Origin: Albula goreensis | Lineage: Eukaryota; Chordata; Actinopteri; Albuliformes; Albulidae | Direction: 5' to 3' | Assembly: GCA_022829145.1 (NCBI GenBank) | Contig: CM040755.1 | Location: forward strand, 9,992,563-10,056,562 | DNA: 64,000 bases | Shown here: positions 21,801-27,800 of the stretch, one piece after another | How positions within the stretch are numbered: position 1 is the first letter of the stretch | Layout: every line of letters begins with the position of its first letter | The notes under the pieces: model-generated | Databases searched by the model: none | What the model was told of the DNA's origin: nothing | Seen by the model: the letters and a program-made list of their open reading frames with translations, nothing else | Translations under genes and position numbers: made by a program

Positions 21801-24800
21801 CAAAGGTTAAAGCCTATTACAGCAAACACGTTCAGCTTGTTTTAACTCAATTTCCCAGATTCCACAGCAACACTGCTATCCAAAGAACATGATAACCAGT
21901 GAAGGGGCATATCACTGTAATGTACACTTGAATGTAGCCATGTGCACATAATACAAAATGTGTTTCCCTTCTCTGTTAAAGCCATTAACCCTGTCCGCAA
22001 TCAATTTTAAACTGGATGTTAACTAGATGTACTGCTCTTTATCAATTACAACTTATCATATGCTGTAACAATATTATATATTGGTGCAGCCTGGCACAGC
22101 CCTTTAGCTCATCTGGTAGAGTGCAGTGGCCCAGGTTCAAATCCAGCCTGAGACCTTTGCTGCATGTCCCCCTCCTCTCTCTCCCCACCATTTCCTGTCT
22201 GTCTTTCTACTGTAACTGTGAAATAAACTGGGAAAATCCCCCCAAAAAAACAAAAAACTGCAGCCTGAAACAGTTCACACACTCTTCCACAAATCAGCAT
22301 TAGTTAGCTGCATCCTTTTTCTGTTATGGCTTTTAAACCTCAACTAATTCTTACCACACTGAGGTGAATGAAGTTTACATACCATCAGGGTTGTTTGCAG
22401 TGGTTAGAAGCACAAGTAAAGATGTGAGTGACTGAGGCAAGTTTCTGAAATAAACTTTCCATTCTTCATTCTTTTCTGCATCCTACACAAAAAAAAGGTC
22501 AAGCTGATACCATTGAGCTGATCATTCGATTCCACTGCATTAAGGAACAAACTTTCTTCAGTAGTTTGTAGAGAAGTCAAATGGCTTATCATTTGTCCTT
22601 GTGCACAATAACCGATTGTGATTTTCTTACAGTGTTTCAGAAGCCTTGCCATTGTGCTGCAGAATTACAATACTATATATCCACCTCTAGAGGGCACTCA
22701 ATAACCAACAAGGAAATGAGTTGCAGACTGCAGACGGCAGGAAATGAGGGGAGTTTTGTACAGTGTTTTTATCATTTGAATGCGTTCAGGTAACAATGTA
22801 ATTGCAATAACCTGCAAGATATTTTTTAAAAGCAAAATGTATATAAAATGTACCATATTGTCCATGATCCAGGTTACATCTTAATAATTTTAAAGTGGAG
22901 ACGGATATTTTCTGAACACAAAACAGTGAATGTTTTTGAATGTGTTCTAAAATATATCTGTACACAATCTGGCACATAGCTTGGATATTAGCACATGCCT
23001 CACAGGGGCAGCAGACAGCTGTTTTTTTTTTTTTTTTTTTTTAAAAAAAGCTCTAAAAGTTGTGACATTACCTCTCCCCTGTTAAACAGCAGCATGCCAA
23101 ACATGGTGAAGAGACACAAGTGCAGGGCCAGGAGAAGAATAACACTACAGAAGAGAGAGAGAGAGACTCACTGAGAGGTAGCACAGAGAGCCATGGAAGT
23201 CACAGGATATCAGATTCACAACAAAGAGGCCACTTTCACAGAATAAACCACACTCATATGGGAGAAATCATTTATTCTTTCTCTAATAAAAAAACTCTTT
23301 AAATTATAACCTTTCTATAGGCTAGCTTGAAAGGCCCCTACAAGGCTTGCTTGTCACACAGCATTGTGTTGGTGTTCCACACTCTTAAAAAGGACAGACT
23401 CCCCAGCTACCCAGAGACTGAGGACTATCAGAGCGGCTCTGTGCTCTCCCACACTGCCTCTCCAGTTCAGTGTGATTACCTTGCGATTTCTGGCAGCGTC
23501 CTTTTGATGCATTTTAATGTTTTCTTCATTAGTGATGAGTTTTGGAGGAGGAAGAAGGGACGGAAAAGTCTTCGGATTCTTAAACTCTGAAATTTGCATT
23601 GCGCAAAAACATTGTTTCTGACAAACATTTCTTTGCACACAATTCTGATACAGCCTTAGCTGATCAGTGCAGTTATATATACTTGAATGACTAAAGTACA
23701 TAATAAATAATGAACAATTGCTTCAATAAATGGTGGGTAATAGCTCCCATAAAATACAACGAACATACAAAATTGCTGATCCATTCCTTTGCTGTACTAG
23801 GTGTGGCCTAGACTGAATCAGTTTAAATAGCACTGCCTTGTACAATTACATATCATATAGCTAATGTTCCCATAAAGACAACATATGAAAGGTAGAAAAC
23901 TGGAAACACCCCTCTCACCTCATTACAATCCATGGTCAGTGACAACATCCAATCAATGACAGATCCTGCAAGGACCACTGTGTAGCCAATCAGCCATTTG
24001 CTCTTCAGGAACTCATCCCAGCCAATCAAATAGCACTACCAGCAAAATAAGGATTAGTTACTAAACATGTTGAATCACTGTTACACATAGTACTACCTCC
24101 CTGTAAAAAGGTTGATGGTGGCATTATGAAACTGTCTGAATTGCAGTTTGGGCCATTTCTGAAACTTATGAGCAGAAACCACCATATAGATAAACCACCA
24201 TCAGCGGTTTATGCTGGTTCTTTACAACATGTCCATGTTTAATACCTAACTGCACCTGAGATAATCCACTGATCTGCACATTGTTTTTACATGGCCCTCT
24301 CATGATGGTAAACATGAACTGAAACACACTACATTAGTTCCTTTGCCACACTTTCACTGACATTTCCTTATCTACAGTGACAATGCAAAATGCTGGCATC
24401 TGTCAGCATGCAGTGCTTCTAATGACTGATAGATCAAAAGGTAATTGACTTTGTGCACTTCAGCACTGTTTGAGCATAGGGTTGCCAGATGTGGCATTAT
24501 CAGCACAGTGTTTGATTTACCTCTGATTGACCAGTAGTGGCCAATAGAGAGTGATGAGACCAGCAAACCCAACAGGCTTAACTGGCATGGCTGAGCCAAT
24601 GCAGCCCTCTGGCCATAGCCAGCAATGATGCAGCTGGCCCTCCAACACCCAGTCACAGGGCTCACACTTGCTTCCCAAATGAATGCATTACTGCATGAGT
24701 CAACAAAGAGGCAAAAGGCTGACCTCTTTTACACAGAAATTTCACAATTTAGTTAATGAAGAAAAAAACATATGATGTGTTGGAACTCTTCCCCAGCACA

Positions 24801-27800
24801 GTGAAAAAATCTGCTTTGGGTAAAAATTCTCTCCTACTACACCACACCTACTTTTATTCTGTGGTAGACTCTAACCACAATGATACCCCTAAGAGGAAAT
24901 AATGTAATGCAAAGTCACAGGTTGCTGGATTTACCTTCACAGTGAGGTCGAGGGTGAAGATGACATAGCAGATCATCTCCAAACTCTCGGTCAGGCCACA
25001 GGGGGGCTCCCATGGGGGCTGCTTGTAGCTGGGGTCTGATGTGGCGGAGAGCGATGAAGGCCTCTCGATGAAAGCTAAGGCCAGGATCACAGCAATAATC
25101 ACACCCAGCCCCCTAACAGACAGAAAAAACAACATCACAACATCACCAATCAACCTGGAACATGAGAGACAAAGCTGGGAACGGGGTAATGCCTTTGTAT
25201 AATGCAATGGTAGTCATTTACAGTAGGGTCCATAAACCTGAGACCACTTCCCCATTCAGGTAAATGAGGTCAGCCTTTTGCCTCTTTGTTGACTCATGCA
25301 GTAATGCATTCATTTGGGAAACAAGTGTGAGCCCTGTGACTGGGTGTTGGAGGGCCAGCTGCATCATTGCTGGCTATGGCCAGAGGGCTGCATTGGCTCA
25401 GCCATGCCAGTTAAGCCTGTTGGGTTTTCTGGTCTCATCACTCTCTATTGGCCACTCCTGGTCAATCAGAGGTAAATCAAACACTGTGCTGATAATGCCA
25501 CATCTGGCAACCCTATGCTCAAACAGTGCTGAAGTGCACACAGTCAGTTACCTTTTGATCTATCAGTAGGTTCAGGCTGTCATATAACCCCTCTGAGTTT
25601 TGACTGTGTTTTGAATATTTGTTTTTTTTACTGTTGGTTATTTCCCTTTCTTTTGCCTGCTTGTGCAAATAAAATTGTGAATAATTAATGAATGAACAAA
25701 CTGATATAATACAAGAACTTGTTCCAACTGGTATAAATATTTAAAGCTTAAAGCTGACCTGATGTCACCCTATAACAATATTGACAAGCTGAATTGCCTC
25801 TTTTGAACGAAATATTTATTTGTTCTTCTGTCTTTGTGTAAATGAATGAGGCTTTTTTGAAAGACTGTGACAAAATGATTCGCTGTAGCTTACCACTGAC
25901 AGGTCCTGGAATAGTACCATCTGTAAAGCCATAGTGATCTTGAATCCACTCGATGATTTATGGATCGATACTGTCAAATGAATTAAATTATTTTGAAGAC
26001 ATTTACAGAAAATCAAATAGAAACATTGTAAACATATGTACAGATATACTGTTAACAACAACAACAACAGCAACAGTAATAATAATAATAAAAATAAAAG
26101 TACCTGTATGGCATCCTCAATAAAAACAAGAGCCTGCTTGATGTGGAGGCCCTCATTATCTTAATAGGAAAAGAATGCATTGGTAAGACTATATTCATAT
26201 TCTATTGTTATATTCACTGTAGTCTATAATAGTACAGTATCTGAAAACAATAAATGAAAACAATTCAATGAAAACACATAATTGTTTGCTTTTTAAAATT
26301 TTAAGGAAGATTTAAGCAGAAAGACACACCAAACCCCATACGTGTGAGGGAAATATTTTACCTATTACAGTATCTCCTGGTTATGGTGGAAAACAATTCT
26401 GTCCTGTTTTACATTGAAGGGAACATTATAAGTATTTTTGGATGTGACTTGCCTCCCAAGTCCTTAGTAATTAAACAGGAGTCATGACTAACACTGAGCT
26501 GCCTGTAAAAACACAAAAAGAACACCACTCATACAGAAAAACTCTATTCTGAGCTAACAACAATATTGTTTCATCTGGAAATGAAGATTGTAAAGGAAAG
26601 TAATGTCATTGCTCTTATATTTGTTTTCCGAACTGCCAATGTCTTCTGAGTCATACCAGCCTATTATCTGCTCAGTTCATGAGTGCGATAGGAATCTGTT
26701 CTCCTGGCCTGTTCTGTTAACCAACCAATGTGGGGTATTGTGGCTCTGGGTGAAGGGCAGTATCAGTTAATCCAGCCATTTGCATGTCAGCAGAAATGGA
26801 ATGTGAGCAGGTTGGTTAAAGTGGGGCATTATGCTGCACTTGGGTGAGATTCACAGTTGTGGCTATCAAATGGTGAATGTGGGATCTTGAATCACAGTGA
26901 GTGACAAATCTGTCACCTTCATGGAACCTTGTAGACACAATGGTTTGTTTCAGGAAACAGCGATAATCACCCAAAGCTGGAAGCTGCGAGACCAAAATGG
27001 CAGCTTTCAAAGTGCATCTGTGGTGCCTCAAAACTGTAAAAATTGGTGTTGCTGTAGACCTTGAGAGTATCTAACTGTCAAAAGTCTAACTCAAATGTCA
27101 GCCAGATCTATTGAAGCCAAGTAACACCCATCAAGAGCACATTATTCTGTGTGCCAAAATGTATGAATCGTTGGACAAGTAATGACAGTGCACACACTTG
27201 ACTAGAAACTCAAGAGAAATTTAAGAAGCAGCTCTCATGCTGTACTGAACTTTGATACATGTTACGTATTGTGTAGCTCATGCTTCTCACGAATCGAACG
27301 CTATGATGTCAACAAGGCAAAGACATGATGTAAGGTTAGGAACTGTACAGGAATACTGACAAAAGGCCCAACTTGTTCGCGTCGCAAGGTGTGGTGTTAG
27401 AAAAGGTTTACCGTCACTCCTGACACTCATTGCGTAGAGCAAGCCTGCATCTTTCTTTAAAGACGTAGCAAAACGCAGGAATCCCCCAGGCAAATGTACT
27501 CTATTATACAGCAATGACCAGCAGTAGAGATTCTTAGCAAGAAACTTTATCTGTCTGAACAACTTGAACGTTGACAACATCTAATCCTCCCAAATGTTTA
27601 CACTCGAACTGACAGCGATGTCGCAAATGCATTATCTTCCTATCCGCGTCATACGAACTCTTGTGCAAACCAAAATCGTCCGGTATGTTACTTTGATCGG
27701 ATCTGAGATGACAGTACTCACCCCAGTCGATACAACAGCTATCTCCGGTTGCGGAGTATGAAAGTCGCCTTGCTTTTACATTCTCCTCGCAAAGGTTACC

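Follow-up and report, generated by a model that had tools for sequence, protein, structure and literature searches.

The tpcn2 gene of Albula goreensis, lying in a 64-kb window of contig CM040755.1 (assembly GCA_022829145.1), carries a long and nearly perfect inverted repeat whose two arms occupy introns 3 and 4 and enclose exon 4 between them. "The window" refers below to this whole 64-kb stretch, and whole-genome searches covered 932 Mb of the same genome. The inverted repeat is real and is rare within the stretch sampled, and the proposal that both arms descend from one sequence, via duplication or conversion, is well supported by the changes that they share. On balance, our analysis leans toward an explanation in which intron 4 received a piece of intron 3 as an inverted copy and the resulting RNA hairpin would favour skipping or circularization of exon 4, the steps at the RNA level being predicted from the DNA.

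Results

An inverted repeat encloses exon 4 of tpcn2

A position-by-position alignment of the arms, at 24425-24732 and 25260-25567, shows inverted copies that agree at 302 of 308 positions, with six mismatches and zero gaps, and their difference amounts to 1.9% (95% interval 0.7-4.2%). The original prediction had described gapless 302-bp arms, 98% identical with five mismatches, on either side of a 539-bp loop. The alignment confirms these near-identical inverted arms around exon 4, and the repeat is the same one, but its dimensions extend to 308-bp arms and a spacer of 527 bp (24733-25259) past a sixth mismatch, which follows the 302-bp core at arm position 303 and precedes five matching bases. 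The same prediction placed exon 4 alone in the loop, and the 178-nt tpcn2 segment at 24935-25112 is the sole coding segment identified there; complementary sequence is accordingly present in both of the introns that adjoin this one exon. Identity stops abruptly at both edges of the arms, and beyond them the similarity of the flanks is at chance level, shuffled sequences having aligned as well or better in 160 of 200 cases for the outer flanks and in 34 of 200 for the inner ones. Residual homology beyond the arm edges, sought as a sign of an old and longer pair, was not found.

The frequency of such pairs was estimated in 10-kb tiles from 20 random 10-kb stretches on 19 contigs (200 kb) together with the window. 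Across these 264 kb, the tpcn2 pair was the sole inverted pair of at least 80 bp at 90% identity or more within a tile. At 80% identity or more, two additional pairs appeared, both in a single background stretch (L066), about 100 bp long, 80-81% identical and spaced 7.7 and 8.8 kb. These weaker pairs join 402-500 with 9326-9424 and 1707-1802 with 9457-9552 of that stretch. An inverted-repeat search of the whole window returned, besides the tpcn2 pair, four pairs of 62-63 nt at 71-73% identity.

Composition and common descent of the arms

When the genome was searched with the 302-bp arm as query, the best 40 of 268 first-look candidates were scored, and the resulting counts are lower bounds. 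The search returned 41 matches, two of which are the arms themselves (100% and 98%), while the other 39 fall at 38 places. Among these best 40 of 268 candidates, the 39 matches are confined to arm positions 99-288 at 70-89% identity, the best of them reaching 89% across 36 bp or 86% across 85 bp; none covers the whole arm, and no further near-full copy was found elsewhere in the 932-Mb genome. Arm positions 1-106 matched the genome only at the two arms. The search for a dispersed family that the original prediction had proposed thus has a divided outcome, in that the whole arm was not found elsewhere among the scored candidates, but pieces of two old dispersed repeats lie inside it.

Three components make up the 308-bp unit: about 95 bp of unique sequence, a partial small palindromic repeat and a fragment, in reverse orientation, that resembles a short interspersed nuclear element (SINE). 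Compared with one another, all 38 places (L011-L048) proved to be copies of a dispersed SINE-like family, to which about 190 bp of each arm belongs; the head edge of the family is sharp and its opposite end A-rich. Its copies are 66-86% identical to the family majority over the main blocks, and the family is therefore old. One stretch of it we take to be B-box-like. ARAGORN, run on 39 family sequences, reported a tRNA in 0 of 39 at its default and in 8 of 39 at a relaxed threshold, these eight being weak and of mixed types, and tRNA genes were not found in the 64-kb window. Arm positions 1-95, compared with the places of the palindromic repeat, gave just short matches at chance level. The ends of the arms do not coincide with the ends of an element, since one lies inside the palindromic repeat and the other in sequence present only in the arms.

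Departures of the arms from the SINE-like family were scored at 166 columns with a clear majority, after columns with more than half gaps or with a majority below 60% had been dropped. The two arms have 24 of the 25 scored departures in common; none is specific to the left arm and one to the right. This filter omitted two of the three arm differences in the SINE-like part, at arm positions 111 and 140, where the base that deviates from the commonest one is that of the left and of the right arm, respectively; adding them gives 24 shared departures, one on the left and two on the right, which leaves the conclusion unchanged. Independent insertions should not share 24 of 25 departures together with a unique part, and a common origin of the two arms is well supported for this reason. 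The suggestion of a recent duplication or gene conversion between the arms, already made in the original prediction, is thereby supported, and a likely direction, from intron 3 to intron 4, can be added to it.

Probable direction of copying

The inner flank of the right arm, from 25221, holds the start of a dispersed palindromic repeat, with TA followed by CAGTAGGGTCC; we take this repeat to be Tc1/mariner-like. Eight places were aligned: in two the match continues 21-22 bp beyond position 25260, the edge of the arm, in five others it continues 7-12 bp, and in the last it ends at 25258. In a gapped alignment with the majority sequence of these eight, agreement of the right-arm context is 34 of 39 columns beyond the arm edge and 17 of 22 within the arm. 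The left-arm context, searched for the palindromic repeat, gave zero matches, and it agrees at 16 of 22 inner columns through its copy of the arm sequence. At arm position 303, the commonest base of the palindromic repeat is that of the right arm (6 of 8). Searches with the left inner, right outer and left outer flanks returned only the place of each flank itself and the matching arm end. The palindromic repeat thus passes unbroken through the edge in intron 3 but is truncated at the one in intron 4, and this makes intron 3 the likely source, with copying from there into intron 4. A target duplication of at least 5 bp was not found at the left arm, as was also the case in 1459 of 2000 random placements, and the 6-bp target repeat at the right arm was equalled or exceeded in 189 of 2000; target duplications were therefore given no weight in deciding which arm was inserted. 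At L079, about 80 bp of sequence contain the terminal motif of the palindromic repeat in each of the two orientations, an arrangement resembling a small element of the class that we take to be foldback transposons.

Gene model and reading frame

Exon 4 has the splice acceptor TTAG/G and the donor AAG/GTAAAT, the slash marking the exon boundary, and its protein aligns to positions 89-143 of the TPC2 chain 8ouo_A (phmmer, E = 1.1e-17). The TPC2 chains of the PDB that it matched are presumably human, and the exon is taken here to encode the S1 region. Its number is that of the original prediction, since exons 1 and 2 were not located. The coding pieces of tpcn2 cover 8ouo_A from 53 to 703 with gaps chiefly at 346-401 and 453-469, and several stretches are weak individually (i-Evalues 0.18 to 130). 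The protein ends of TPC2 were not found among these pieces, and one searched frame gave no match. The gene looks functional and its coding pieces look conserved, as judged from the pieces rather than from one full reading frame. Joining exon 3 to exon 5 yields Cys-Ala-Ile followed by a stop as the fourth codon; with 178 nt, exon 4 is out of frame, and its skipping would break the frame as predicted, after three altered codons. This stop lies upstream of further exons, and decay of the skipped message would therefore be expected.

Predicted RNA fold and its possible consequences

In the predicted minimum-energy fold from exon 3 to exon 5, 303 of the 308 possible arm-arm pairs are formed. The two arms together have a predicted energy of -623 kcal/mol versus -85 and -105 kcal/mol singly, and the fold of 24400-25590 is predicted at -783 kcal/mol. 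The very stable stem that had been anticipated for the pre-mRNA is supported by these values, which speak to the stability of the stem and not to its forming before splicing.

We propose that intron 4 of tpcn2 acquired an inverted copy of a 308-bp piece of intron 3, the two now being about 2% apart, and that in pre-mRNA the two copies should pair into a near-perfect stem of about 300 bp with exon 4 looped out. Such a stem would put the exon-3 donor near the exon-5 acceptor, which could lead to skipping of exon 4, and the exon-4 donor near its own acceptor, which could yield a 178-nt circle. The skipped mRNA would be degraded or would encode a stub. Full-length TPC2 message would then likely be reduced in part, which is probably tolerated as a side effect and is probably not a switch. 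The idea of an on/off switch for TPC2 goes unsupported beyond plausibility, as nothing here shows regulation or selection.

Other features of the window

The coordinates of the repeat, its components and the neighbouring tpcn2 exons and introns are collected in Table 1. Elsewhere in the window, a UnaL2 3′ element of a long interspersed nuclear element (LINE), the stem-loop of LINE ends, lies at 29035-29088 (+) with 63.4 bits and is the sole window match at the Rfam gathering score. The open frame at 38436-38963 (+) encodes the end of a sterol reductase of the ERG4/ERG24 family (Pfam PF01222, E = 4.2e-45), which from its C-terminus we assume to be dhcr7, and a GA microsatellite of 144 bp occupies 45348-45491. 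A scan of 24400-24760 for bacterial promoters and terminators found zero, a result that is uninformative for a vertebrate intron.

Table 1. Coordinates of the tpcn2 inverted repeat and associated features (MITE, miniature inverted-repeat transposable element)
Feature	Position	Strand	Description
Left arm	24425..24732	+	Intron 4; putative derived inverted copy; 302/308 against reverse complement of 25260-25567
Right arm	25260..25567	-	Intron 3; putative native source; palindromic repeat across inner boundary 25260
Loop	24733..25259	-	527 nt, holds exon 4
tpcn2 exon 3	25894..25970	-	77 nt; numbering of the original prediction; acceptor picked by eye
tpcn2 exon 4	24935..25112	-	178 nt; numbering of the original prediction; phmmer against PDB TPC2 chains, E = 1.1e-17; splice sites
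tpcn2 exon 5	23919..24035	-	117 nt; donor AATGAG/GTGAGA
Intron 3	25113..25893	-	781 nt; contains putative source arm, arm end 147 nt from exon-4 acceptor
Intron 4	24036..24934	-	899 nt; contains putative copied arm, arm end 202 nt from exon-4 donor
SINE-like fragment, left arm	24519..24716	-	Arm positions ~95-292; two blocks against majority of 38 copies (91%, 108 bp; 82%, 55 bp); internal deletions relative to majority
SINE-like fragment, right arm	25276..25473	+	Same two blocks against majority of 38 copies (90%, 108 bp; 82%, 55 bp)
Palindromic repeat fragment (MITE-like, TA before it)	25221..25280	+	Crosses right-arm inner edge 25260; 8 dispersed places aligned

Discussion

Several points weigh against the explanation by inverted copying and exon 4 skipping. 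A circle of 178 nt is short for a single exon. The polypyrimidine tract of exon 4 is good and its splice sites are canonical, and efficient inclusion despite the stem is possible. Skipping as strong as that caused by the engineered 220-bp pair in mouse Tbxt, described below, would cut TPC2 sharply, yet the exons look conserved. The overlap that indicates the direction of copying is short, five of the seven places crossing the edge by 7-12 bp and the 17 of 22 agreement coming from a gapped alignment, and the background rate of inverted pairs is derived from 264 kb. In this one genome, moreover, conversion of an older pair and a young duplication look alike.

The duplication could be real and nevertheless a neutral scar, exon 4 being spliced normally and the stem being without measurable effect. 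The conserved look of the tpcn2 coding exons found and the canonical splice sites of exon 4 fit such a scar, as do homozygous mice with the human Alu pair, for which PMC10901737 describes little skipped transcript in the tail bud and no obvious tail phenotype. In the same source, however, engineered pairs of similar or shorter length did induce skipping (PMC10901737), and matches of just 7 and 13 nt are described as effective at zip-2 in C. elegans (PMC8330042). An inert stem is an appreciable possibility but not the one we favour. It is also conceivable, although we doubt it, that an old inverted pair has been held alike by gene conversion or template switching from arm to arm, with no young duplication involved. 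Homogenisation of inverted-repeat arms is given as a known process in PMC8604942, and the 98% identity and the shared changes are compatible with it; residual similarity past the edges, such as a partial refresh of a longer pair might leave, is absent, and a single recent event is simpler.

About 190 bp of each arm belongs to a SINE-like family with at least 38 other places, which might suggest that a mobile element inserted twice, independently and in opposite orientations. This we regard as extremely improbable, since among the best 40 of 268 candidates the other matches peak at 89% (36 bp) or 86% (85 bp) and all fall short of the whole arm, 24 of 25 departures are common to the arms, about 95 bp is unique to them, and the arm includes part of the unrelated palindromic repeat. 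In its simplest form, as a pair of young insertions, the idea was rejected on the strength of the shared departures, the shared unique part and the lack of any further full copy among those candidates. An assembly artefact in which one arm was placed twice is scarcely more credible. The arms differ at six positions and have distinct flanks on both sides, and the two intronic parts of the loop, the parts with which the genome was searched, are single in it; the pair therefore does not have the look of a fold-back chimera.

Inverted copying from intron 3 with hairpin-induced mis-splicing thus remains the preferred explanation, within which skipping of exon 4, perhaps with a 178-nt circular RNA, is a plausible result and the best expectation from precedent, its extent not being fixed by that precedent. 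A literature search on tpcn2 exon 4 found no circular RNA of TPCN2. Our results suggest that inverted intronic pairs can originate without two mobile insertions, when part of an intron is copied locally into its neighbour. The tpcn2 candidate is geometrically simple, encloses a single known exon and has a clear outcome for the reading frame. Should the 2% divergence reflect a correspondingly young copy, relatives that lack this copy could serve as natural controls.

The closest known counterpart is the Alu pair around exon 6 of ape TBXT, which, as outlined in PMC10901737, resembles the tpcn2 repeat in that an inverted intronic pair of about 300 bp traps one exon. The TBXT elements are two separate mobile insertions 1,448 bp apart, whereas the tpcn2 pair seems to have been copied locally; the Alu pair placed in mouse matched at 228 of 297 positions (PMC10901737), whereas the tpcn2 arms are 98% alike; and, unlike in TBXT, the skipping predicted for tpcn2 would shift the frame. 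Closer in design is the engineered mouse Tbxt, in which a piece of an intron was likewise set as its 297-bp reverse complement in the next intron, and this pair induced skipping in embryonic stem cells (PMC10901737). Mice could not be derived from that line, and in the tail bud of embryos homozygous for a 220-bp pair the skipped transcript exceeded the full-length one, the tails of such mice being about 10% shorter (PMC10901737). Our results raise the rather speculative possibility that Albula tpcn2 is a natural counterpart of this experiment, in which a recent inverted copy between introns has partly disabled TPC2 at the level of splicing; such an allele might be polymorphic within the species and give a graded dose of full-length channel along with circular exon-4 RNA.

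Complementary intron sequences also promote both back-splicing and skipping of the enclosed exons at zip-2 of C. elegans, where removing either match nearly abolished circular and skipped transcripts alike (PMC8330042). The zip-2 matches measure 7 and 13 nt, the 13-nt one being conserved in five nematodes, whereas tpcn2 has one long pair (PMC8330042). As for the origin of the copy, short-range template switching similarly copies a nearby stretch as its reverse complement and creates a new inverted repeat close by (PMC7954356; PMC8604942). In the gold-standard events in great apes, the median copied segment measures 12 nt and the longest 128 nt (PMC7954356). The tpcn2 copy of 308 bp with its 527-bp spacer exceeds these sizes, and a larger templated-insertion route is therefore probably no less likely. 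Set beside these systems, the tpcn2 hairpin lends itself well to testing a known mechanism in nature.

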